Shown: positions 4,332-27,470 of the stretch, piece after piece
How the letters are laid out: each line of letters opens with the position of its first letter
Position numbering within the stretch: the first letter of the stretch is position 1
DNA from: Falsiroseomonas algicola
GTDB taxonomy: Bacteria; Pseudomonadota; Alphaproteobacteria; Acetobacterales; Acetobacteraceae
Reading direction: 5' to 3'
DNA: 64,000 nucleotides
Assembly (NCBI RefSeq): GCF_011040385.1
Contig: NZ_JAAIKB010000003.1
Location: forward strand, 310,001-374,000
Notes under the pieces: generated by a model
Databases searched by the model: none
Told to the model about the DNA's origin: nothing
Seen by the model: the letters and a program-made list of their open reading frames with translations, nothing else
Position numbers and translations under genes: made by a program

Positions 4332-6361
4332 GCCGCGATCCTCCGCGCGATGATCGCGCCCTCGGGGTCGAGCGCCGCGCGCCAGCCGGCGGCGATGACG
4401 TGGGTGGCGAAGGCTTCCTCGATGATGGCGGGGCCCTCGATGGTGTCGGCCAGGCGCAGCCTCTCCCGCCGCCAGACCGGCCAGGAAGTCGCCGCGCCGC
4501 CCTGCCACACCTGGCGCGATCCCGGTGCCGTCGCGGTATCGGCGGGCGTCGCGCTCGCCTCCTCCGGCTTGTCGAGCCGCCCGATGGCGGCGGCGCGCAA
4601 GGTCACGATCTCCACCGGATCGCCCTCCGCCGCGTAGGAGAAGCGCGCGCGATGCGTCGCGTGGAAGCGCGCGAGCAAGGGCGGCAGGGCAGGGGCCTCC
4701 GGCCAGGGCACCAGCAATTCGAAGGCCTGGCCGCGGTAGCGGAGATCGGCCGAGATCTCGACCGCACGCTGCGCGGGCGCCACGCCATCCTCCGCCAGCC
4801 GCGCATCGGCCTCCGCGCGCAGAGCCTCCACCGCCGCCGCCACAGCCTCCGCCTGGTCGTCGCGATACAGCCGCGACCGCGCGAGGTCCTGCACGAGGTC
4901 GGAGAAGAGGATCCCGTAGGCCGAGAGCGTCCCGGGCTCCCGCGGGAAGACCACTTCCGTGATGCCGAGTTCGTCCGCCACTTCGGTGGCATGCAGCCCG
5001 CCCGCGCCGCCGAAGGACAGCAGCGCGAAGTCGCGGGGATCGAGCCCCTTCTCGAACAGCGAAAGCCGCACCGCCGCCGCCAACTGCGCATTGGTCACAC
5101 GCAGCACGCCCTCCGCCGCCGCTTCCGTGCCCAAGGCGAGCGGTGTCCCGATCCGCGTCTCCATCGCCGCCCGCGCGCCCGCGAGGTCCAGCGCCATCGC
5201 CCCGCCCAGGAAGAAGTCGGGGTCGAGCCTCCCCAGCACGGCATTCGCATCCGTCACCGTCGGCTCCGTCCCGCCGCGCCCGTAGCAGACCGGCCCCGGC
5301 CGTGCCCCCGCGCTGCGCGGCCCCGCCGTCAGCCGCCCCGCCGCATCGACGTTGGCGATGGAGCCGCCCCCCGCGCCGATGGTCCGCATCTCCACCATCG
5401 GCAGCCGCACCGGCAGCCGGTCCACCTCCCCCTGCGTCACCAGCCCGATGACGTGGTCCTGCACGACGGAGACGTCGAAGCTCGTCCCCCCCATATCCAC
5501 CGCGACCAGGTTCGGCCGTTCCAGCCGGCGGGAGAGCCGTTCCGCCGCCAGCGCGCCGCCCGAGGGGCCGGAGAGCAGCAGCCGCGCCGGCTGTTCCGCG
5601 GCCCGCCGCAGGCTGCACATGCCGCCATTCGACTGCACCAGGAAGATGCGCGGCCTGAACCCGTCCTCCCCGAGCCGCGCCTCCAGCCGGGCCAGGTAGC
5701 GCTGCACCACCGGCATCAGCAGCGCGTTCAGCACCGTCGTCGACAGGCGCTCATACTCCCGGATCTCCGGGCTGATGTCGGAGGAGAGGCTGATGGGCAC
5801 GCCGGGCAGCGCCTTCGCCACCGCATCCCGCAGCGCGCGTTCATGCGCGGGGTTGGCATAGGCATGCAGCAGCCCGATCGCGATCGCCTCCGGCGCCGCC
5901 GCGCGCAGCCTGTCCGTCAGCGCGGTCAGGTCACCCAGCGGCACCTCCACGCTGCCATCCGCGCGCATGCGTTCCACCACGCCGAAGCGCCGGTCGCGGT
6001 CCATCAGGCAGGGGAAGGGGTCGGGCGCCAGGCCGTAGATGTCGCGCCGGACGTGGCGCGTGATCTCCAGCACATCCTCGAACCCCGCCGTCGTCAGCAG
6101 CACGCCGCTGGCCAGCTTGCGTTCCAGCACCGCATTGGTCGCGATGGTCGTGCCGTGCAGCAGCAGCCCCACATCGGCCAGCGCGAATCCGAAGCGCGCC
6201 GCCGCCTGGCGGATGCCGGTCATCAACCCCTCGGAGGGATCGGCCGGCGTGGTGGGCGCCTTCCAGGCCATGACGCGGCCGTGGCGCTGGTCCAGGATCT
6301 GGAAGTCGGTGAAGGTGCCGCCGATATCGACCGCGATGCGAACGGGCTGCGTCGCGCTCAT
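4328..6361 (-). CDS. hyuA: Hydantoinase A / 5-oxoprolinase alpha-type subunit
   Basis: 677 aa, full length for HyuA. It opens with VDIGGTFTDFQ, the ATP-binding phosphate loop of the actin/acetate-kinase fold. LLHGTTIATNAVLERK follows at about 70-85, and VAVDMGGTSFDVS near 290 is the second phosphate loop. GGAGGLHA and the C-terminal EGPAIIEE are also family blocks. It supplies the ATPase part of the ATP-dependent ring-opening enzyme, with HyuB encoded immediately downstream. First gene of a three-gene minus-strand operon (hyuA-hyuB-MFS). Confidence 0.95.
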   Translation of the reverse strand: MSATQPVRIAVDIGGTFTDFQILDQRHGRVMAWKAPTTPADPSEGLMTGIRQAAARFGFALADVGLLLHGTTIATNAVLERKLASGVLLTTAGFEDVLEITRHVRRDIYGLAPDPFPCLMDRDRRFGVVERMRADGSVEVPLGDLTALTDRLRAAAPEAIAIGLLHAYANPAHERALRDAVAKALPGVPISLSSDISPEIREYERLSTTVLNALLMPVVQRYLARLEARLGEDGFRPRIFLVQSNGGMCSLRRAAEQPARLLLSGPSGGALAAERLSRRLERPNLVAVDMGGTSFDVSVVQDHVIGLVTQGEVDRLPVRLPMVEMRTIGAGGGSIANVDAAGRLTAGPRSAGARPGPVCYGRGGTEPTVTDANAVLGRLDPDFFLGGAMALDLAGARAAMETRIGTPLALGTEAAAEGVLRVTNAQLAAAVRLSLFEKGLDPRDFALLSFGGAGGLHATEVADELGITEVVFPREPGTLSAYGILFSDLVQDLARSRLYRDDQAEAVAAAVEALRAEADARLAEDGVAPAQRAVEISADLRYRGQAFELLVPWPEAPALPPLLARFHATHRARFSYAAEGDPVEIVTLRAAAIGRLDKPEEASATPADTATAPGSRQVWQGGAATSWPVWRRERLRLADTIEGPAIIEEAFATHVIAAGWRAALDPEGAIIARRIAA

Positions 6362-6949: not shown

Positions 6950-8935
6950 TCACGCCGCCGCGGCCATGCGCCTGAACCCCAACGCCGCCAGCCGGGCCTG
7001 CGATTCGGCCGAATCCAGCACCCGCAGGAAGGCCCGGACCGGCGCGCGATCCGCCCGCGCCTCGGCCAGGAAGAAGTCGTAATGTTCATCCGCCAGCGGC
7101 AGGAAGCCGAGCCCATAGGCGCGCGCCACCGTCTCGATCGCCACCCCCCAATCCGCGCGTCCCTGCGCCACGGCGGCCGCGACCGCATTGTGGGATTTCG
7201 GCTGGTTTGCGTAGCCCGCGGGCCTCGCGCCGCCCAGCAGCCCGTCCAGCAGGATGCGCGTGCCAGACCCCGCATTGCGGTTCACCAGCAGGCAGCGTGG
7301 ATCGGCCGAGGCCGCCGCCACCGCCGCCGCCCCGTCCATCCCGGCGAAGCGGCCGTCGCCGGGCCGGAACACCACCCCCTGCAGCCGCCGCCAGCCCGGC
7401 ACCAGGCGCAGCCCCGGCGCCAGGAAGGGCGCGTTGTAGGCGCCCGTCTTCGGGTCCAGCAGATGCGCCGGCGCCAGGTCGCATTGTCCCCGCTTCGCCG
7501 CCGCCAGCCCGCCCAGGCTCCCCACCGCCAGGCTGCGCGCGCCGATCCCCTCCGCCGCCAGCAGGTCCAGCATCGCATCCAGCCCGACGCAGTGGCTGCC
7601 GATGATGGTCAGCGCCGGCAGCCTCGCTGGCCCGCCGATCAGCGTCACGCGCAGCGCCTGCCCGGCCTCCGCCCCCTGGTCCAGCGCCGGGATGGCGAAG
7701 AACCCGTCCGCGGCTCCGAAGGCCGTGACGCTGCCCGAGCCCTTGCCGAGCGGCCAGGCCATCAGCCCGTCCTCGCCCCCATCCTGCCCTTGGGCCAGCG
7801 ACGCCATCACATATTCCTCGCGCCCCAGCTCGCTCGGCATCCGCACCGCGAGCCGCGCCGGCACCTCCGCCTCCACGCGTTCGGGAAGCCCGGCCATCGC
7901 CCGCAGCAGCGGCACCGCGAACCGATGGAAGGTGAAGACGGCACTCGTCGGGAAGCCCGGCAGCACGAAGACCGGCTTGTCCCGCAGCCTTGCGATGCAG
8001 AGCGGCTTGCCCGGCTTCAGCGCCACCCCGTGCACGATCACGCCATCCCCCAGGATGCGGTGGGAGACATCGCCCGCGCCCTTGCTGGTGCCGCCGGACA
8101 TGACGACCATGTCCGCCTCCTCCAGCGCGCGGGAAAGCGCGGCCGACAGCGCCGCCTCCTCATCCCGCAGGATGCCGAAGGGCAGGGGCTCGCCGCCATT
8201 CTCCGCCACCGCCGCCGCCAGGATGGCCGCATTGCTGTCGGGGATGGCGCCCGGCGGCAGCACGCTGCCCGGCGCGCGCAGCTCATCGCCGGTCGAGATC
8301 ACCGCGACGCGCGGCCGCCGCACCACGGGCACCGAAGCGATCCCGCAGGCCGCCAGCATGCCGATCTCGCGGCTCGTCACCACGGTGCCGGCGCGCAGCA
8401 CCGTCTCCCCCTTGGCGATGTCGCTGCCCGCGAACCCCACGAAGGCGCCGGGTGCGGCGGCGCGGGACAGCAGGATGGCGGGCGGCTCGCCCTCCTCCAG
8501 CCCCCCTTCCTCCATCACGGTATGCTCGATCATCACCACGGCATCGGCGCCGCGCGGGATCACGCCGCCGGTCGCGATGGCGGTCGCGGTGCCCGGCGCC
8601 ACCTCGATCCCCGGCGCCACGCCGCAGGCCAGCACCTCCGCGTTCAGCACCAGGCGGCGCGGCGTCGCCTCCGTGGCACCGGTGGTATCGGCCGCCCGCA
8701 GCGCGAAACCATCGACGGCGCTGCGGTCGAAGGGCGGCGCATCCGCCGCCGCGGCGATGGGGCGCGCCACCACGCGGCCGAGCGAGTCCGCCAGCCCCAC
8801 GCTTTCCTCGCCCAGCGCCTGGAACGGAAAAGCCGCGCGCAGACGCGCCGCCGCTTCCTCGGCGGAGACAACATCGAGAAACTGTTCCTGCCGCGCGGCG
8901 CGGCGGATGCGCTCAACCAGGGAAGGATCGGTCAT
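6950..8935 (-). CDS. moeA: MoeA molybdopterin molybdotransferase fused to a PBP-like domain
   Basis: 661 aa: MoeA (about 1-435) followed by a periplasmic-binding-protein-like domain (about 440-655). MoeA inserts molybdate into adenylylated molybdopterin to make Mo-cofactor. The signatures are intact: RSAVDGFALR (71-80), VISTGDEL (212-219), GGTSKGAGD (281-289), LKPGKPL (306-312) and LPGFPTS (325-331). The C-terminal part (GSHCVGLDAML, NRNAGSGTR, ADWGVAIE) resembles molybdate-binding domains that elsewhere occur alone or fused to regulators; it has no export signal, so it acts in the cytoplasm. The start overlaps the stop of the preceding MoeA-like gene by 4 bp (ATGA). A user of the cofactor, the PaoABC-like enzyme, lies 40 kb away. 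Confidence 0.92.
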   Translation of the reverse strand: MTDPSLVERIRRAARQEQFLDVVSAEEAAARLRAAFPFQALGEESVGLADSLGRVVARPIAAAADAPPFDRSAVDGFALRAADTTGATEATPRRLVLNAEVLACGVAPGIEVAPGTATAIATGGVIPRGADAVVMIEHTVMEEGGLEEGEPPAILLSRAAAPGAFVGFAGSDIAKGETVLRAGTVVTSREIGMLAACGIASVPVVRRPRVAVISTGDELRAPGSVLPPGAIPDSNAAILAAAVAENGGEPLPFGILRDEEAALSAALSRALEEADMVVMSGGTSKGAGDVSHRILGDGVIVHGVALKPGKPLCIARLRDKPVFVLPGFPTSAVFTFHRFAVPLLRAMAGLPERVEAEVPARLAVRMPSELGREEYVMASLAQGQDGGEDGLMAWPLGKGSGSVTAFGAADGFFAIPALDQGAEAGQALRVTLIGGPARLPALTIIGSHCVGLDAMLDLLAAEGIGARSLAVGSLGGLAAAKRGQCDLAPAHLLDPKTGAYNAPFLAPGLRLVPGWRRLQGVVFRPGDGRFAGMDGAAAVAAASADPRCLLVNRNAGSGTRILLDGLLGGARPAGYANQPKSHNAVAAAVAQGRADWGVAIETVARAYGLGFLPLADEHYDFFLAEARADRAPVRAFLRVLDSAESQARLAALGFRRMAAAA

Positions 8936-9900
8936 CGGGGAAGGGCTTCGGCCTCGATCTCGGCGCCGGCTTCGTAGCCCTCCGCGCCGGGCGGCACCAC
9001 CAGCACGGCCGCCGCGGCCGAGAGCGCCTGCAAGGGCAGCGCGCCCACCGCCAGCGGCGTCGCCACCCCGGCGCCATCCAGCGCCAGCGGCACCAGCTCC
9101 GCCAGCCCCACCGTGGAGGCCACCTTGCGCGCCAGCCGGGCGCGGATCGGCGCCGGCGCGGCGGCCCCCGCCAGGGCGCGCAGCGCCGGCAGCCCCAGCA
9201 GCAGCCAGGCGGCGACGGCATCCTCCGCGAGCGGCGGCAGCAGCACCGCCGGCACGCCACCTTCGCGCCCGATCCCGGCTGCCATGCCCGGCCGCGCGCC
9301 CATCCCGGTCATGGCCTCCGCCAGCCCGCCCTCCTGCGTCAGGACCAGGTCGGGCGGCCCGTCCTGCGTCTCCGCCCCCGCCGCCACCGTCCAGGCCGAA
9401 AGCAGCGCCAGCACCGCCGGATCGGCATGCCGCAGCGCGAGGCGCGGCACGCGCACCGCCACCTCCCGCACCCCCAGCGCCGCCAGCGCCGGCAGGTCCG
9501 CCGCCCGCAGCGACTCTCCCGCCGCGCGGATCACCCGACCGGCCTCGATCTCCCCGCCCGGCGCGCGCACCCCGTCGCCGGGCGTCGCCTGTTGCAGGGC
9601 GAGCGGGAGGGGGCCGTCGCCATCCATGTCGAAGGGATCGAGCAGCGCATCCGTCCCCGGCGGCAGCGCCTGCCCCGGGCCGAGGCGCAGGGCCGCGCCG
9701 GGGATCGGCACGGGCGCATAGGGGCTTGCCCCCTCCGTCTCCGCCGCCGCCACCGCCCAGCCATCCCGCATCGCCACCGGCGCGGCGGGCACCGGCGCCG
9801 CGGCCCGCACCTCCTCCGCCAGCACATGGCCGATCGCCGAGGCGGGCGCGCGCCGGTACGGCGCCACCGGCGCCAGCTTGGCCAGCAGAAGCGCGCGCAT
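8932..9900 (-). CDS. Short, divergent MoeA-like protein
   Basis: 322 aa against about 400 for MoeA. The N-terminal domains are recognisable (VAMRDGWAV matches the MoeA MDGYAV block; PPGTDALLDPFD matches GADAVV; then PGEIEAGRVIRAAGE-like spacing). The GGTSxGxxD active-site loop appears reduced to EGGLAEAMTGMG, and the LPGxP block to VPAVLLPP. It is coupled to the intact MoeA fusion by a 4-bp overlap. It could be a regulatory or partner subunit of the MoeA dimer, or an eroding duplicate. No frameshift is seen and the frame is open throughout, which argues for selection. Confidence 0.72.
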   Translation of the reverse strand: MRALLLAKLAPVAPYRRAPASAIGHVLAEEVRAAAPVPAAPVAMRDGWAVAAAETEGASPYAPVPIPGAALRLGPGQALPPGTDALLDPFDMDGDGPLPLALQQATPGDGVRAPGGEIEAGRVIRAAGESLRAADLPALAALGVREVAVRVPRLALRHADPAVLALLSAWTVAAGAETQDGPPDLVLTQEGGLAEAMTGMGARPGMAAGIGREGGVPAVLLPPLAEDAVAAWLLLGLPALRALAGAAAPAPIRARLARKVASTVGLAELVPLALDGAGVATPLAVGALPLQALSAAAAVLVVPPGAEGYEAGAEIEAEALPR

Positions 9901-10040
9901 CGCATCCGGCGCGGTCAGGCGAAGGGGGGTGGAGATGGCGGCCGTCCCGGTTTCCGTTGGCCCGCAGTTAGGGGCGCTGCGCCCGATTCACCAGCGCCCG
10001 GGTCCCGGGAAGTGATGCCGAACCACGCACGCCGTGATCG

Positions 10041-10070
10041 AAAACACAAAAGGGAGAGCGCAACCCTCCC
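10041..10070 (-). terminator. Orphan hairpin with T-rich tail, readable on the minus strand
   Basis: On the minus strand GGGAG and CTCCC arms (10052-10056 and 10066-10070) are followed by TTTTGTGTTTT (10041-10051), the form of an intrinsic terminator. No protein gene lies just upstream on that strand, and moeA-like only starts at 9900. Apart from this, the 9901-10170 gap shows nothing recognisable. Confidence 0.35.
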
Positions 10071-10170
10071 CCGTCATGCCCGCATGGCGTGCATTCCGGG
10101 GGGCGGTGTAGGCTCGCGCAACCTTGAACAACTGCCGGATTCCGTGATCCCCTTGGCCTTTGTCCTGCGC

Positions 10171-10563
10171 ATGCTCGACCGGTTGCGCAGCCTGCCGCTG
10201 TGGATGCGCCTTCTCTGCGCGCTCCTCTTCGGCCTCCTTGCCTTCCTCGTCCGGATCACCCTGCTCGATCACCGCCCGGGCGCGGGGCGGGACCTCATGC
10301 TCGTCGCGATCGTCCTCTCCGCCTTCTGGTGGGGCTTCTGGCCCGGTCTCGTCACCGGGTTCACGGTGCGCGGCCTGGCACTCTGGTATTTCGTCGGCCC
10401 GCCGGAGGTCACGCTGGTCCGTCCCTGGGACGACAAGGGGATCTGGTTCTTCATCGTCATGACCGTCTCCGCCGCCTGGGCCGCGGGCACGGCGCTTCTG
10501 GTGCTGTCCCGCGCCGAGGACCGCGGCGATGACGGCCGCCCGCCCGACCGCCTGGAAGGCTGA
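10171..10563 (+). CDS. Small DUF4118-like membrane protein
   Basis: 130 aa with four hydrophobic segments: LLCALLFGLLAFLVRITLL, LMLVAIVLSAFWWGFW-PGLVTGF, LALWYFV, and FFIVMTVSAAWAAGTALLVL. The layout and the WWGFWPGL turn resemble the DUF4118 membrane module found in the N-terminus of KdpD-type kinases, here standing alone. No kinase or other catalytic domain follows. The ATG at 10171 is the first in frame near helix 1; a GTG at 10144 is an alternative start and neither has a good ribosome-binding site. The gene lies upstream of, and in line with, the GntR regulator. Function unknown. Confidence 0.6.
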   Translation: MLDRLRSLPLWMRLLCALLFGLLAFLVRITLLDHRPGAGRDLMLVAIVLSAFWWGFWPGLVTGFTVRGLALWYFVGPPEVTLVRPWDDKGIWFFIVMTVSAAWAAGTALLVLSRAEDRGDDGRPPDRLEG

Positions 10564-10570
10564 GTCTCTC

Positions 10571-10602
10571 GATTTTCGAAGATACTTGATTGATCGAATA
10601 TC
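10571..10602. promoter_or_regulatory. Putative GntR operator, gntR promoter copy
   Basis: GATTTTCGAAGAT (10571-10583) is followed 10 bp later by TCGAATATC (10594-10602), giving an imperfect inverted repeat of the form GATnTTCGA...TCGAAnATC. It sits 37-68 bp before the GTG start of the GntR regulator. The same 13-mer occurs once more, before the alpha/beta-hydrolase gene at 15694. Autoregulation by the adjacent GntR protein is the simplest reading. Confidence 0.5.
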
Positions 10603-10638
10603 CGCCCCTAGGCTCCCCGCGACGGGAAGGGGGGTATC

Positions 10639-11346
10639 GTGCCGCCGCGCACCAACCAGAAGCCGGCCGAGCCGGAAGCGGTGCTGGTCAGCCAGGACGT
10701 GTTGTCGCGCCTGAAGGGCGACATCCTGGATGGCCACTTCGCACCCGGCACGCGGCTCCGCTTCGCCGATCTCCAGCGCGCCTATGGCGCCGGCATCGGC
10801 ACGCTGCGGGAGGCGCTGTCCCACCTGCTGCCGGAAGGCCTGGTCGAGCTCGATGCCAATCGCGGCTTCCGCGTCGCCGCCATCTCGGCCGATGACCTGC
10901 AGGACGTCTCCGCCCTGCACATCGAATTCGAACAGCGCGCCATCCTGGACAGCGTCCGCCATGGCGACGATGCGTGGGAAGCCGGCCTCGTCCTCGCCTT
11001 CCACCGCCTCGCCAAGATCGAGCGGCTGAGCCGAGAGGAACGCAAGCAGCGCAGCAGCGAATGGCTGGCCGCGCATCGCGACTTCCACCGCGCCCTCGTC
11101 GCCGCCTGCCCGTCCCGCTGGCTGCTGCGCCTGCGCGCGCAGATGTATGACCACATGGAGCGCTATCGCCTCGTCTCCCAGCGCCACCGGCCGCTCGGCC
11201 CATCGAAGCGCGCGGAGCATGAGGCGATCCATGACGCGGCGCTGTCCCGCCAGGCGGAGCGCGCGGCCGAACTCCTCGGCGCCCATCTGCGGGAGACCAC
11301 GGAGACGGTGCTGCGCCACGCGCCGCAATTCATGCCGCCGCCCTGA
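10639..11346 (+). CDS. GntR-family (FadR/FCD-type) transcriptional regulator
   Basis: 235 aa. The N-terminal winged helix spans about 20-85, with LKGDILDGHFAPGTRLRFADLQ and the recognition part GIGTLREALSHLLPEGLVELDANRGFRVA, a typical GntR pattern. The C-terminal helical domain (about 95-225) has the FCD spacing of metal-ligand residues (HRDFHRALVAAC, HEAIHDAAL), so a small organic acid is the likely effector. The start is GTG with GGGAAGGGGGG just upstream. It precedes an extradiol dioxygenase and a TctC receptor on the same strand and probably controls them together with the dehydrogenase/hydrolase genes that face them. Confidence 0.9.
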   Translation: MPPRTNQKPAEPEAVLVSQDVLSRLKGDILDGHFAPGTRLRFADLQRAYGAGIGTLREALSHLLPEGLVELDANRGFRVAAISADDLQDVSALHIEFEQRAILDSVRHGDDAWEAGLVLAFHRLAKIERLSREERKQRSSEWLAAHRDFHRALVAACPSRWLLRLRAQMYDHMERYRLVSQRHRPLGPSKRAEHEAIHDAALSRQAERAAELLGAHLRETTETVLRHAPQFMPPP

Positions 11347-11377
11347 GACGAAGCGGGCGAGGGAGGAAGGAAGAAGA

Positions 11378-12331
11378 ATGCAGGACCCCATCATCAAGGT
11401 GCGCGACGTCGCCTGGATCCGGCTCGGTTCGCCGGACCTCGACCAGGCCGAGCGTTTCCTCACGGATTTCGGCCTGGTCCGGCAGGTGCGGACGGAGGAT
11501 CGCCTCTACATGCGCGGCACCGGGGAAGCCCACCATCTGCACATCACCGAATGCGGGCCGGACCGCGTGCTGGCCGTGGGCTTCCACGCCGACAGCGAAG
11601 CCGACCTGCACCGCCTGGCCGCCCATGCCGCCGGTGCCTCGGGCGTCGAGGACCTGAACGAGCCAGGCGGCGGCAAGCGCGTGCGCCTGAAGGACCACAA
11701 CGGCTTCACCATGGAGGTGGTGCACGGCGTGGCGACGGTGGCGACGCTGCCGGAACGCCATTCCGTGCTGAACACCGGCGCGGATCGCCCGCGCCTCGGC
11801 CAGTTGCAGCGGATCGAGCCGCGCCCCTGCCAGGTGAAGCGCATGGGCCATGCGGTGTTCAGCACGCCGGACATCGAGGGCTCCGTCGCCTGGGCGCATC
11901 GCCACCTCGGCTTCGTCGTCAGCGAGCATGTCCATGCCGAGGACAATCCGGACTTCCTGCTGGCCAGCTTCAACCGCGCCGACCGGGGCGAGGAGTTCGT
12001 GGACCACCACATCATGATGTTCGGCCGCCACAGCCGCGCGGGCCTCAACCACATCTCCTACGAGGTGCAGGACATGGACGACCTCCATGCCGGCCATGAC
12101 TGGCTGAAGAGCCAGGGGCACTACCACCTCTGGGGCATCGGCCGGCACCTGCTGGGCAGCCAGGTCTTCGACTACTGGAAGGATCCCTGGGGCCGCGTGC
12201 ATGAGCATTGGACGGACACGGATGTGCTGAACGCCGCCGTGGCGCCCCGCAAGCTGCCGAAGAGCCAGGGGCTGAAAAGCCAATGGGGGCCACAGGCGCC
12301 CCAGGAATTCCGGGAAGCCGCGAGCGTCTGA
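11378..12331 (+). CDS. Extradiol ring-cleavage dioxygenase (VOC family, catechol 2,3-dioxygenase type)
   Basis: 317 aa, the size of two-domain type I extradiol dioxygenases. Two VOC modules are visible (about 8-115 and 155-280). The iron triad is present in the second: His158 in MGHAVFSTPD, His225 in LNHISYEV and Glu276 in GRVHEHW. The enzyme is expected to open a catecholic ring next to the hydroxyls with O2 in the cytoplasm. GAGGGAGGAAGG provides a good ribosome-binding site 31 bp after the gntR stop, so the two are likely co-transcribed. The TctC receptor downstream and the nearby alpha/beta hydrolase suggest an aromatic-acid pathway, but the ring substrate is not evident. Confidence 0.88.
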   Translation: MQDPIIKVRDVAWIRLGSPDLDQAERFLTDFGLVRQVRTEDRLYMRGTGEAHHLHITECGPDRVLAVGFHADSEADLHRLAAHAAGASGVEDLNEPGGGKRVRLKDHNGFTMEVVHGVATVATLPERHSVLNTGADRPRLGQLQRIEPRPCQVKRMGHAVFSTPDIEGSVAWAHRHLGFVVSEHVHAEDNPDFLLASFNRADRGEEFVDHHIMMFGRHSRAGLNHISYEVQDMDDLHAGHDWLKSQGHYHLWGIGRHLLGSQVFDYWKDPWGRVHEHWTDTDVLNAAVAPRKLPKSQGLKSQWGPQAPQEFREAASV

Positions 12332-22945: not shown

Positions 22946-23863
22946 TCAGCCCCCCGCCGGTGGCTTGGGCGCCGGCCCGGCGCTGACGCCACCCCATTCC
23001 GCCTGGGCCGCGGCCAGCGGCGTGGGCTCCCCGGCCCAGATCTCGGAGTCCAGCACCGGGCGCAGCCTGCGCCAGATGCTCGGCCCCTTGCCCTGCACGC
23101 CGTGCACGAGCCGTTCGCTGGCTTCCGAATCGCTCGGGAAATGCACGCCGGCGATGTGGCGGTTGACGGCCAGGCGCTGCGCCAGCGTGCGGCAGGCTGG
23201 CGCCATGGCCGGGCAGGCCTCCGCCAGCGTGAGGCCGATGAGGTGGGCGTGCAGCGCGTGGCCGCTGGGGTAGGAGGGGTGCGGCGGCACCGGGATGGGC
23301 GGCATCAGCGCCGGATAGACCTGCGGCGGGCGCGGCCGGTTGTAGACCGACTTCCAGTGCATGCAGACCATATGCGCCACCGCCATGGCCGCCGACATCA
23401 GCGTCCAGGTCGCGGGATGGGATTGCGGCGTCATGCTGAAGAGCTGCGCCCAGTAGCGCGCGGGCTCCCCGGACTGGGCGACGAGTTCGTCCATCCGGTC
23501 TTCCCGCATGTAGACCAGGTTCAGCAGCGCGGCGATGTCCTGTTCCAGCGCCTTCTGGCTGTTGTCGGGCGGGGACAGGGCCACCTTCTCCCAGCCGCTG
23601 CGGGCGAAGGCGGCGAGGATCGGCATGGCGCGGAGCGTCGGGTCCCAATGGCCGGGCCGCCAGGCGGCGCCCAGGATCAAGGGCAGCTTGCCGGTGACCT
23701 CGGCCTGGGACAGCTGGTCGTCGTCCGGCGTGGAGGGGCCTTCCAGAGCACCGTCGATCGGCAGCCCGCCGCCGCCGCCCGGGCCTTCCGGCCGCATGCC
23801 GCCATCGCGCGCGCCAACCCGCCCGCCAGGGGACATGCCCCCGTCGCCACTTGATCTCTTCAT
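22946..23863 (-). CDS. PAP2-superfamily phosphatase / vanadium-haloperoxidase-like protein
   Basis: 305 aa. The three phosphate/vanadate-pocket motifs are in order: K171-x4-R176-P-R178 (KSVYNRPRP), P199-S-G-H202 (YPSGHALHA) and R235-x5-H241 with D245 (NRHIAGVHFPSD). Soluble class A phosphatases and vanadium haloperoxidases share this pocket; there is no obvious membrane segment, unlike lipid phosphatases. The N-terminal 45 residues are Gly-rich and disordered, with no clear signal peptide. Downstream of the SARP regulator (66 bp gap) and immediately before the protease gene. Phosphatase or peroxidase activity cannot be decided from the motifs. Confidence 0.85.
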   Translation of the reverse strand: MKRSSGDGGMSPGGRVGARDGGMRPEGPGGGGGLPIDGALEGPSTPDDDQLSQAEVTGKLPLILGAAWRPGHWDPTLRAMPILAAFARSGWEKVALSPPDNSQKALEQDIAALLNLVYMREDRMDELVAQSGEPARYWAQLFSMTPQSHPATWTLMSAAMAVAHMVCMHWKSVYNRPRPPQVYPALMPPIPVPPHPSYPSGHALHAHLIGLTLAEACPAMAPACRTLAQRLAVNRHIAGVHFPSDSEASERLVHGVQGKGPSIWRRLRPVLDSEIWAGEPTPLAAAQAEWGGVSAGPAPKPPAGG

Positions 23864-23929: not shown

Positions 23930-26011
23930 CTAGGGTGGGAAGCCCGCCAGCAGCAGCTGGCGTTCGTAGGTCTCTCGTCGTCCCAGGTCGCTGAAGGGGT
24001 GCTGGGCCAGGCTGGCGCGGACGCGGTAGCCGGGCTGCTGCGCCAGCGCGTCGCGCGCCAGCATCCGCGCCGCCTCCACCTCTCCCTGCGCGGCGAGGGA
24101 GGCGGCGGTGACGCGGAGGTTGGAGAGGTAGCGTGGGTTGAGCGCCAGCGACCGCCTTCCATGTTCGACGGCGGTGGCGAAATCCCCGGCCACGTAATGG
24201 GCGATGGCGAGGAAGTGGAAGGTCCGGAACAGGAAGGGGTCGTCGGGGGCCAGCGACAGCGCGCGTTCCGCGCGGCGCACCGCTTCCGCGCCATCGCCGA
24301 GATAGGCGTAGGTCGGGCTGCTCTGCAGCCAGGCCGTCGCGTCGTTCGGCGCCAGGTCCAGCGCGCGGGACAGCAGGCGCAGCGCCTCGTCATAGCGGCG
24401 GTGGCGGGTGGTGCGGTTGTGGCCGAGCAGCGACAGCGCCCGAGCATTCTGCGGATCCGCCGCGATGGCGCGCGCCACGGCGGTGTCCATCGCGGCGGTG
24501 TCGCCCGCCACGTCCTTCGACCAGCGCTGCCCGACCCAGAGGCTGAGCCAGGCGGCCTGCGTCGCATGCGCCATGGCGTAGCGGCCATCCATCGCGATGG
24601 CGCGCCGCAGCAGCGCACCCGCCTGCTCGAAGGATCTCTCCTCCAGCGCCGCCATCATGTGGCGGGCCTGGAGGACTAGGTGGTAGGCGCCGATGGCCCC
24701 GGGCGGGCGGCGGGCGGCCTCCCCCAGCTCGATCTCCTGCACCCGGGGCGCGAGGGTATTGGCGACGCTGGCGGCGATGGCGTCCTGCGCGGCGAAGAGC
24801 CCGGCATCGGTCGCGTCGAAGGCGCGCGCCCAGACCACCGTGCCGCCTTCCACCGCCGTCAGCTGGACATTGAGGCGCAGCGCCTCCCCCGCCCGGCGCA
24901 CGGTGCCGGAGACGACGTAGCGCGCACCGAGCGCGGCGCCGGCGGCGGGCGCGTCGATGCCGGCCTCCGCATCCTCCGGCCGCCGGCCCGCGATGACCAC
25001 GGGCTCCCGCATCGCGGCGAGGGAGCAGATCACCTCCTCCACCATCCCCTCCGCGAACCAGCGGGGGACGGGGTCGGCGCCGATGGCGCGGAAGGGCAGC
25101 ACGGCCACGCGCGGCACGTCGTCCGACCAGGCGGAGCCGGCGGCGGCGGCACGGGCGGCGGCCGGGGCGCGCCAGGCGGTCTCCGCCTGGCCCTCCACCA
25201 GACCCTGCTTGATCTCCACCGCCAGCGCCTGGGTGGCGGCGGAGGGTTCCATGTCCAGCTCGCTGCCGAGATGCTCGTAGAGCGCCCCGTAGTGGCGCAG
25301 CGCGACGCCGAGCTCCCCATCCTCCGCCGCCAGGCGCATGGCGACCCGGCAGGCCGCTTCATGGGTGGGGTCGAGCCGCAGCGCCGCTTCCGCCATCTGC
25401 CGGCGAACGGCGCGGGGATGGGCCGCATCGCCATAGGCCGCTTCCAGCGCATGCAGCACCTGCGCCAGCGCCGTGCGGCGGCGTGCCTGCAGCCATTCCG
25501 CGAAGAGGGGGCTCAGATCCTCGTAGCCCGCCAGCATCTGGTCGATGCAGCCGGGCTGGCTGCGCAGCAGGTCCGGCAGCTCACCGGCGCCGATGGCGTG
25601 CAGCGCGCGGTCGAGGTCGAGCGCGAAGGCGCCGGGGGCAAGGCCCACCTCGTCCCGCCCCGCGGCCAGGGCGTCGCAGCCGCGCTTCTCCAGCGCCTCC
25701 CGCAGCTCGAACAGCGTCTGGCGGAGCGAATTGCGGGCCTGGCGTTCGGCGACGTCGGGCCAGAAGAGGCCGGAGAGCCGGTCCCGCGGCACCGCGGCCG
25801 TGCCGGCTTCCAGCGCCAGGAAGGCCAGCATCGCCCGCGCCTTGCGCCCCGCCAGCGGCAGCGGCCCGCCGGCGAAGCCCAGCGTCAGCCCGCCGAGGCA
25901 GCCGATCGCCAGGATCGGGCGCGGGGTGGGCTCGGCCGGGGCGGCGCTGGCGGTGATCGCCAGCGGGCTCATGCTCGTCATGACCATTCCGGTGGGCGCG
26001 GTTTCGGGCAT
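23930..26011 (-). CDS. SARP/BTAD winged-helix regulator with TolB-like and TPR domains
   Basis: 693 aa. An OmpR-like winged helix (about 36-130, with RKARAMLAFLALEAG and RNSLRQTLFELREAL) and a bacterial transcriptional activation domain (about 130-275, ALRLDPTHEAACRVAMRLAAEDG, SELDMEPSAAT) define the SARP architecture. A TolB-like segment (about 300-425, VAVLPFRAIGADP) and TPR repeats (about 440-690) follow. No ATPase domain is present. SARP proteins activate by binding direct repeats in front of target promoters; five 11-bp repeats lie in the divergent gap with the AOS-like gene. The ATG at 26011 is the first of three close candidates (others at MVMTS and MTSMS). The signal sensed by the TPR part is unknown. 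Confidence 0.87.
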   Translation of the reverse strand: MPETAPTGMVMTSMSPLAITASAAPAEPTPRPILAIGCLGGLTLGFAGGPLPLAGRKARAMLAFLALEAGTAAVPRDRLSGLFWPDVAERQARNSLRQTLFELREALEKRGCDALAAGRDEVGLAPGAFALDLDRALHAIGAGELPDLLRSQPGCIDQMLAGYEDLSPLFAEWLQARRRTALAQVLHALEAAYGDAAHPRAVRRQMAEAALRLDPTHEAACRVAMRLAAEDGELGVALRHYGALYEHLGSELDMEPSAATQALAVEIKQGLVEGQAETAWRAPAAARAAAAGSAWSDDVPRVAVLPFRAIGADPVPRWFAEGMVEEVICSLAAMREPVVIAGRRPEDAEAGIDAPAAGAALGARYVVSGTVRRAGEALRLNVQLTAVEGGTVVWARAFDATDAGLFAAQDAIAASVANTLAPRVQEIELGEAARRPPGAIGAYHLVLQARHMMAALEERSFEQAGALLRRAIAMDGRYAMAHATQAAWLSLWVGQRWSKDVAGDTAAMDTAVARAIAADPQNARALSLLGHNRTTRHRRYDEALRLLSRALDLAPNDATAWLQSSPTYAYLGDGAEAVRRAERALSLAPDDPFLFRTFHFLAIAHYVAGDFATAVEHGRRSLALNPRYLSNLRVTAASLAAQGEVEAARMLARDALAQQPGYRVRASLAQHPFSDLGRRETYERQLLLAGFPP

Positions 26012-26079
26012 TGCGGGGCGGCGGCTTCGGGGCGGTGGATATCGCCCTGCAACAATCCACCACGCGTCGCGCCCCCCTG

Positions 26080-26134
26080 GCAACGTGGCGGTAAGGCGCC
26101 GTTAACGCCCGTCTAACGTTCGGCGAACGCCGCC
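26080..26134 (+). promoter_or_regulatory. Five 11-bp direct repeats, probable SARP operator
   Basis: Consecutive 11-mers starting at 26080, 26091, 26102, 26113 and 26124: GCAACGTGGCG, GTAAGGCGCCG, TTAACGCCCGT, CTAACGTTCGG, CGAACGCCGCC. The shared core is AACG (AAGG once) at an exact one-turn period. Known SARP activators bind short direct repeats spaced 11 bp apart. The array ends 32 bp before the AOS-like ATG and lies 69-123 bp upstream of the regulator's own start, so it can serve both directions. Confidence 0.6.
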
Positions 26135-26165
26135 CATGCATGGTGTTCCCATGAGGAGAACCGCC

Positions 26166-27470
26166 ATGCGCGCCATGAACGACGACCAACGCGGCCTGCC
26201 CGAGCTGGAGACCGTGGCCGGCGACTACCTGGAGCGGGAAGGGCCCGACCTGCTCGACCGGTGGGAGAGGCACCAGGCCTTCTGGGAGGCCAGGATGGCG
26301 GCGGGGCTCGATGCCCAGCCGCGGGTGATGCTGGACCGGGTCGGCCCGGAAGCCCATGTGCTGACGCGGGGCCAGGACCGGATGCGGGGCGTGAACTTCG
26401 CCTCCCCGGACTACCTCTCCCTCTCCACCCATCCGGCGCTGGCGCAGGCGGCGAAGGAGGCGATCGGCCGCTGGGGCCTCGGGGCCTCAGGGCCCGTCAG
26501 CGTCCAGGGGGGCAGCCTGCCGCAGCAGGTGCTGGAGGAGCGGATCGCGGACCTGCTCTGCTGCCGCGATGCCACCGTCTTCCCCTCCGGCTGGGCCGCC
26601 ACCCACAGCGTGCTGACGACGCTGCTGCGGGAGGAGGATCACATCATCCTGGACCCCGCCGCCCATCCCGCGCTGCGGGAGGCCTCGGCCCGGGCCACAC
26701 CGAACCGCCATGCCGTGTCCCAGAGCAATCCCGGCGCGGTCGCCGCCTACCTCGCCCTGCTGCGGTTGCGCCATCCGCGGGCCGGCCTGCTGGTCGTGGC
26801 GGAGACGATCTGCGCCGCCGATAGCGGGGAGCACGATCTGCGGGCGCTGCGCGATGCCTGCCGCGAACACGGCGCCACCTTCATGGTCTGCGTGGGCCAT
26901 GACCTGGGCGCGATCGGGAATGGCGGCCTCGGCGTGCTGGGCGAACAGGGGCTGGCGGGGGAGGTCGACATCGTCGTCGGATCCTTCGCCGCCAGTTTCG
27001 GCAGCGCGGGCGGCTTCGTGGCCGGCAATGCCAGCGGGCTGAAGCCGGCGTTGCTGGCCTTTGCCGGGCCGCTGCAGCACGCCACCGCCTTCTCCCCCGT
27101 CCAGGCCTGCATCGTGCTGGCCGCGCTCGACCTGCTGCGGTCGGCGGAGGGCGCGCAGCGGCGGCGGCGGCTGATGGCCAATGCGCTGCAGCTTCGCCAA
27201 GGCCTTGCGGCGCGCGCCTTCACCGTGCCGGGGCGGCCAAGCGGCATCGTGCCGGTGGAGATCGGCGCCATCGCCGATGCGCGGCGCCTGACCCGCGCCG
27301 CCATCGCGCGCGGCGGGCTGGTGGAACTGGTCGAGCATCCGGAGGTGCCACGCTACAGCGCCCGCTGGCGGCTGCACGTGATGGCCGACCATACGGAGGC
27401 GCAGATCGAGCGCATCATCGGCATCGCCGTCGCGGCGCGGGAGGAGGCGCAGCCCCGCCTGACAGGGTGA
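26166..27470 (+). CDS. AOS-family aminotransferase homologue lacking the PLP lysine
   Basis: 434 aa. Fold and motifs match 8-amino-7-oxononanoate synthase/KBL enzymes: NFASPDYLSLSTHP, FPSGWAATHSVL, HIILDPAAHPA, GHDLGAIGNGGLGVLG and GSFAASFGSAGGFVAG. In active enzymes the last block reads G-T/S-F/L-S-K; here the Schiff-base lysine is Ala276. The Asp that pairs with the PLP ring nitrogen, three residues before the motif His (His245), is Cys242. It should therefore not work as a normal PLP enzyme. The ATG at 26166 has GAGGAGAA 8 bp upstream. Divergent from the SARP gene and 43 bp ahead of the peptide ABC operon, it may be a scaffold or sensor. All other conserved glycines are kept, so it is not a decayed gene. 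Confidence 0.85.
   Translation: MRAMNDDQRGLPELETVAGDYLEREGPDLLDRWERHQAFWEARMAAGLDAQPRVMLDRVGPEAHVLTRGQDRMRGVNFASPDYLSLSTHPALAQAAKEAIGRWGLGASGPVSVQGGSLPQQVLEERIADLLCCRDATVFPSGWAATHSVLTTLLREEDHIILDPAAHPALREASARATPNRHAVSQSNPGAVAAYLALLRLRHPRAGLLVVAETICAADSGEHDLRALRDACREHGATFMVCVGHDLGAIGNGGLGVLGEQGLAGEVDIVVGSFAASFGSAGGFVAGNASGLKPALLAFAGPLQHATAFSPVQACIVLAALDLLRSAEGAQRRRRLMANALQLRQGLAARAFTVPGRPSGIVPVEIGAIADARRLTRAAIARGGLVELVEHPEVPRYSARWRLHVMADHTEAQIERIIGIAVAAREEAQPRLTG

Follow-up and report, generated by a model that had tools for sequence, protein, structure and literature searches.

Five short direct repeats, one per helical turn at a spacing of exactly 11 bp, lie in a 64,000-nucleotide stretch of the genome of the alphaproteobacterium Falsiroseomonas algicola (contig NZ_JAAIKB010000003.1, forward-strand positions 310,001 to 374,000; hereafter the window), between a gene for a regulator of the Streptomyces antibiotic regulatory protein (SARP) type and a divergently oriented gene for a protein with the fold of the alpha-oxoamine synthases (AOS). 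We consider it probable that this array is a multi-site SARP-type operator of the divergent regulator, serving the AOS-like gene. The original prediction, made from the letters of the window, had read the array as a candidate operator, a reading that is supported at the level of sequence by the retention of three units in all five distinct orthologous gaps, by a neighboring regulator with a predicted ODB-BTAD fold (an OmpR-type DNA-binding domain followed by BTAD), and by the association of TNACG repeats with BTAD genes. On a broader proposal we are evenly balanced: that alphaproteobacterial SARP-type regulators form a widespread family with its own operator code, TTNACG at 11-bp spacing between regulator and divergent target, of which the window would be an extended form, with up to five protomers driving a conserved, catalytically dead AOS-fold protein.

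Results

Position and units of the array

The array is held by the 184-bp intergenic gap between the two divergent genes (25982..26165), where it had originally been placed, and its AASG cores (AACG throughout, except for AAGG at 26093) start on the forward strand at 26082, 26093, 26104, 26115 and 26126; both the predicted positions and the exact 11-bp steps match the sequence, beyond what shuffling produces. The corresponding units are GCAACGTGGCG (unit 1, 26080..26090), GTAAGGCGCCG (unit 2, with a degenerate core, 26091..26101), TTAACGCCCGT (unit 3, 26102..26112), CTAACGTTCGG (unit 4, 26113..26123) and CGAACGCCGCC (unit 5, 26124..26134), all on the forward strand. Searched on both strands without mismatches, the five-copy pattern occurs once in the window; when up to three mismatches are allowed, shuffles average 0.03 matches (largest 2) and the window has three, namely the array itself and its two one-unit shifts. 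Dinucleotide shuffling of the gap, repeated 20,000 times, never produced five AASG words at 11 bp. Of the genome-wide count of the array that was proposed along with the original prediction, the part covered was 1,260,631 bp including the window (19% of 6,560,827). It contains one five-copy AASG array at spacing 11 and one at spacing 15; the remaining 12 spacings between 7 and 20 gave none. The array is absent from the output of Tandem Repeats Finder and from that of find_repeats, because its units share short cores only. A coding role was rejected, as the array sits between the conserved gene starts.

Conservation in orthologous gaps

AOS matches at E <= 1e-60 were present in 3 of 200 genomes of the family and 3 of 15 of the genus, the source genome being counted in each, and an AOS profile at E <= 1e-85 matched 5 of 397 genomes from the family and 3 of 395 from the order, two sets with a large overlap; nine AOS loci came from a scan of named genomes. 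Distinct gaps with a divergent regulator/AOS pair number five, comprising the window and loci L037, L038, L039 and L040 (L046 and L047 repeat L039 and L040, and were not counted separately). The genus of the window genome also includes the genome that carries the Roseomonas ponticola gap.

Aligned on the array, units 3 to 5 read TTAACG/CTAACG/CGAACG in the window, L039 and L040, TTAACG/CTAACG/CCGACG in L037, and GTAACG/GTAACA/CGAACA in L038. These three AOS-proximal units keep their exact 11-bp spacing in all five gaps, with TAACG at unit 3 and TAAC at unit 4 in every case (TAACA in L038), and GAACG (window, L039, L040), CGACG (L037) or GAACA (L038) at unit 5. Only the window and its near relatives L039 and L040 have AA at all five positions, the near-relative cores reading CAACG (in register in both), TTAAG in L039 or TTAAA in L040, TAACG, TAACG and GAACG. 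At the position of unit 1, L038 has AA without AACG and L037 has neither; in the same array-anchored alignment, unit 2 was found in neither L037 nor L038. Conservation, the check attached to the original prediction, thus holds for units 3 to 5 in all five gaps, and for units 1 and 2 only in the near relatives L039 and L040. The letters of the proposed AACG/AAGG core are present in the window, but AASG is not what the relatives conserve, and we rejected it as the true core, since near relatives keep other letters and other BTAD loci are enriched in TTNAC(G).

The 11-bp periodicity was reached by 8 of 300 shuffles for the window, 1 for L039, 14 for L040, 64 for L037 and 5 for L038, so that in L037 the evidence lies in the aligned cores and not in periodicity. 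Beyond the divergent pairs, the array was not seen at L051 or L052, AOS homologs with no BTAD match in their 1.5-kb flanks. In L043 (Gemmobacter aquaticus), where a BTAD gene follows AOS on the same strand, TGACGG occurs twice at 11 bp upstream of AOS, but 34 of 300 shuffles reach the overall 11-bp periodicity of this locus, and its best-scoring stretch is elsewhere. In L041 (Anaerolineae), upstream of AOS and on the other strand, there is a weak BTAD match (28%). The one TNACG pair at 11 bp sits at its edge and may be coding; no such pair lies near AOS.

An array of another word was observed upstream of the AOS homolog in L042, an Anaerolineae metagenome-assembled genome, where GTTTGGATACG stands twice in tandem at 11 bp (5856-5899), with a related copy two units further; its periodicity was reached by 2 of 300 shuffles. 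The 6 kb upstream of this homolog contained no BTAD match (E <= 1e-3), and TNACG and TTNAC pairs at 11 bp were likewise absent.

The regulator

The regulator gene (23930..25981, reverse strand) encodes 683 amino acids, in the order OmpR-type winged-helix DNA-binding domain, BTAD, middle part and TPR; the ATG at 25981 was chosen as its start because L039 and L040 align from there. Its Pfam content consists of BTAD (PF03704, 29.7 bits against a cut-off of 22.1) and TPR families; the Pfam scan gave no ATPase domain between the two, and no receiver domain was reported in the domain scans. We modeled the 272-residue N-terminal part from seven sequences (mean predicted local distance difference test score 88.4). 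AfsR and EmbR top both structural comparisons of the model, with a clear gap to the next row and a match over the whole 230 residues, and the predicted fold is accordingly ODB-BTAD. Among solved structures, EmbR is also the best sequence match (E 1.8e-14, residues 25-259). In the alignment with AfsR, R87 and R94 are kept and K95 is replaced by E.

We call the regulator SARP-type by its domains; it is not a classical SARP. Resemblance to the HilA/EilA-type regulators of Enterobacteriaceae is limited to the middle and TPR part, NCBIfam NF009037 matching residues 385-678 of the 717-residue reading frame at 27 bits, far under its cut-off of 589, and leaving the DNA-binding part untouched. The HilA box is itself an 11-bp direct repeat, for which we found no supporting paper.

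11-bp repeats upstream of related BTAD genes

The test word TNACG was fixed after the first 26 upstream regions, in which the best three-unit score showed no clear excess at spacing 11 over 9 or 12, and before 60 further regions were fetched. With a third set of 28 (10 search loci plus 18 stretches that were fetched; 9 belong to the own family and 19 to other families of the class), the total came to 114 upstream regions of related alphaproteobacterial BTAD genes, which fall into 43 homology clusters by single linkage of upstream DNA. L162 and L172 were dropped (51 and 192 bp upstream remaining), and among the matches listed, N-terminal matches not taken include G156:C17, G119:C205, G147:C73 and G167:C512.

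In the 60 regions, TNACG pairs numbered 12 at spacing 11 (in 10 regions), 7 at 20, 5 at 8, 4 each at 23, 27 and 29, and 1 each at 10, 12 and 13. The third set, thin alone, gave three pairs at 11 (all from other families), two at 12 and at most one elsewhere. Overall, a TNACG pair at 11 bp is present in 18 of the 114 regions and 12 of the 43 clusters, compared with 0-5 clusters at each other spacing from 6 to 40. When 50,009 word-spacing combinations were scanned (reverse complements counted twice; expected counts taken as the mean of other spacings in the same triplet class, with a floor of 0.25), TTNAC and then TNACG at 11 ranked first: TTNAC with 10 clusters against 0.91 expected (p 4.7e-8; multiplied by the number of tests, ~0.002), TNACG with 12 against 1.59 (p 1.3e-7; ~0.006). 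When the five clusters from which the word had come were removed, the top rank among 38,156 combinations still went to TTNAC at 11 (8 clusters against 0.59 expected, p 2.2e-7; ~0.008). Exact 6-mer repeats showed a mild excess at 11 bp (45 against a scaled background of 26), and enumeration without composition correction was dominated by GC words.

TNACG at 11 bp occurred in only 1 of 90 control regions upstream of LysR, TetR and GntR genes of the same bacterial family (G+C content 0.659; BTAD regions, 0.652). Random 600-bp stretches of the own genome, drawn 114 at a time in 500 draws that left out the window and the paralog's array (L190), gave a mean of 0.57 and a maximum of 5. The 11-bp TNACG repeats are associated with BTAD genes and not with the control regulators. 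Among the controls, the LysR region L228 carries TTNACG twice at 11 bp, and its locus gave no significant match to the regulator.

The 1.26 Mb of the own genome contain a single TAACG pair at 11 bp, that of the window array, and a single TTNACG pair at this spacing, which lies at L190:3978, upstream of L002, the paralog of the BTAD regulator; the less specific TNACG pairs are not enriched at 11 bp in this sequence (13, compared with 6-18 at the other non-triplet spacings). This paralog, 36% identical to the regulator (G000:C11, near 343978), has TTTGACGCTGC GTTGACGCTGC upstream, facing a divergent open reading frame (ORF). At the other loci, the ORFs faced by the repeats are by eye unlike one another, as expected if the regulators act locally. 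By eye, four of the five members of one cluster (L079, L094, L106 and L107) have three TNACG copies, two of them 11 bp apart and the third 20 bp further on, and a TAT/ATAG word follows the third after ~24 bp; this may be a conserved three-site promoter.

Promoter elements

A candidate weak -10 element, CATGGT, lies 9 bp past the last core (26139..26144, forward strand); at SARP targets the distance from the 3' repeat to the -10 element is 8 bp. The word at this distance is CATGGT in L039 and L040, CAAGCT in L037 and GACAAA in L038; a six-letter word with A in second place, at best a weak likeness to a -10 element, stands there in all five gaps. A scan for the sigma-70 consensus and for terminators gave no match. 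A likely ribosome-binding site, AGGAG (26154..26158, forward strand), is also present in L039 and L040.

Discussion

A model of the operator and its alternatives

Were the array an operator of the regulator for the AOS-like gene, one OmpR-type DNA-binding domain would occupy each 11-bp unit, and several protomers would line up along one face of the DNA, at three conserved sites and at up to five in the window. With CATGGT as -10 element, transcription would start near 26151 and the cores of units 3 to 5 would lie at about -47 to -22, by analogy to AfsR; regulator bound beside the weak -10 element would then recruit RNA polymerase to the AOS-like gene. Units 1 and 2 could seat further protomers or raise the local concentration, and the middle part and TPR repeats presumably carry the signal. 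What the analysis shows is the array with its spacing and conservation, the predicted fold of the regulator and the association of such repeats with BTAD genes; binding itself is inferred, as are the mode of action (activation, not repression), the -10 element, how many protomers bind and what the distal copies do.

Several observations weigh against this model. The two distal units are not kept in the deeper orthologs L037 and L038, and the candidate -10 element is weak and escapes the sigma-70 consensus scan. The residues aligned with T88 and R92, with which AfsR reads bases, are Q and E in the regulator, so that base reading must differ from that of AfsR; moreover, the aligned recognition helix of L038 differs from the others, yet the L038 array is kept. 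Across the family, TNACG and TTNAC pairs at 11 bp are both missing from 27 of the 43 clusters. Two of these, with 11 and 6 regions, rank second and third in size; in the largest cluster (39 regions), TNACG pairs are absent and TTNAC pairs are confined to two regions. Spacing 20 also exceeds the rest (8 TNACG pairs), and a de novo expectation-maximization search on the 43 cluster representatives gave AT-rich motifs.

The main rival, and a serious one, though we regard it as unlikely, is that the array is a site of CtrA or of another OmpR/PhoB-type response regulator and that the BTAD gene is a mere neighbor. The CtrA motif is given in the available text of PMC6180460 as TTAA-N7-TTAA, which has the same 11-bp step, and L039 and L040 carry a perfect TTAA-N7-TTAAC formed by units 2 and 3; a PDB entry titled with six PhoP molecules, among the structural matches to our model, indicates that multi-site arrays of such regulators exist. 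The window, however, has GTAA-N7-TTAAC instead, and TTAA-N7-TTAA is absent from the arrays of L037 and L038, which leaves the site in two of five gaps; we rejected CtrA as the sole explanation, since the full site is missing from the window and from two deeper orthologs. The motif has six sites in the 1.26 Mb of the own genome. The variable letter of the 21 TNACG pairs in the wider set (n = 42) is C in 15, A in 14, G in 11 and T in 2 cases, so that C or G (26) outnumber A (14), unlike in TTAA, and the pairs track BTAD genes, not the LysR, TetR and GntR genes of the same family.

It is less probable still that the regulator binds the array mainly for its own gene, by autoregulation or repression, rather than activating the AOS-like gene. 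The gap is shared, 6 of the 21 pairs of the wider set point to the regulator, and L089 and L105 each carry pairs facing both ways; the last core nevertheless ends 36 bp ahead of the AOS start, as against ~100 bp between the array and the regulator start, and the conserved copies are those closest to AOS. A chance or compositional pattern in a GC-rich gap would be very improbable: the cores have just 4-5 letters and a five-copy AASG array turned up at spacing 15, but the shuffle tests and the family-wide excess speak against it, and conservation in five gaps already contradicts it.

Relation to known systems

The original prediction held that the array would extend the SARP rule outside Actinobacteria. 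What would be extended is the rule for BTAD proteins, since 11-bp tandem sites as such are not new there, being known for OmpR/PhoB-type regulators and CtrA. PhoB, for instance, has 11-bp tandem sites. From the OmpR/PhoB-type response regulators (PhoB, CtrA, PhoP), the regulator here is set apart by its BTAD and by the lack of a reported receiver domain. With both large (AfsR) and small (ActII-ORF4, DnrI) SARPs it shares the OmpR-type DNA-binding and BTAD fold, and the locus shares with SARP targets the direct repeats 11 (or 22) bp apart, found here as sequence, upstream of a weak -10 candidate. According to the available text of PMC10936776, the two subunits of an AfsR dimer lie next to each other on two 11-bp repeats centered at -29.5 over a poor promoter, T88 and R92 reading bases and R87 and R94 contacting the backbone; the same text gives AfsR a C-terminal TPR, as in the regulator here, and EmbR of Mycobacterium tuberculosis, the best sequence match among solved structures, an FHA domain after BTAD, which the regulator does not share. 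The AfsR repeat, CGTT(T/C)ATCGNN in the accessible part of the review PMC10972967, shares by eye the letters TTNA with the array core. That part of the review calls SARPs exclusive to actinobacteria, whereas the host here is alphaproteobacterial; the regulator further differs in having no ATPase domain between BTAD and TPR, in its Q and E for T88 and R92, in an enriched operator core of TTNACG, and in three to five units, compared with two or three in the portions of the SARP literature available.

No title or abstract on the operator of a proteobacterial BTAD regulator stood among the matches listed from the open-licence literature. The 11-bp repeat rule and the fold are already known; against that literature, an alphaproteobacterial BTAD operator code with an extended array looks new. 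Such a code, being testable, would make it possible to identify from sequence the targets of a large and little-studied regulator family, and to see whether AfsR-type activation, with a dimer on two 11-bp repeats over the -35 region, reaches longer arrays in another phylum.

The AOS-like protein and neighboring genes

The probable target gene (26166..27470, forward strand) encodes a 434-residue AOS-fold protein that matches the BioF and serine-palmitoyltransferase models well under their cut-offs. Its SKTF motif is changed to AASF and its DVAHD motif to CVGHD, with loss of the catalytic Lys and Asp that we take to be the Schiff-base lysine and the aspartate for pyridoxal phosphate. Both residues are also lost in L039 and L040 (three species in all), and both are intact in L037, L038, L041, L042, L043, L051 and L052. 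The ratio of nonsynonymous to synonymous substitution rates is 0.14 against L039 and 0.15 against L040; as judged from these comparisons, the three proteins are a conserved pseudo-enzyme clade under purifying selection.

The regulator gene is followed by a PAP2 phosphatase-like gene (22946..23863, reverse strand), a homolog of which adjoins the regulator in L037-L040. In L037, where AOS is intact, an animal-type heme peroxidase (PF03098) comes after AOS, and an A4 peptidase after the PAP2 gene (features at 7334-9031 and 1711-2802). L043 has a distant peroxidase homolog (9977-11488; 27% identity), and in the window-type loci solute-binding proteins and an M20 peptidase follow AOS instead of the peroxidase.
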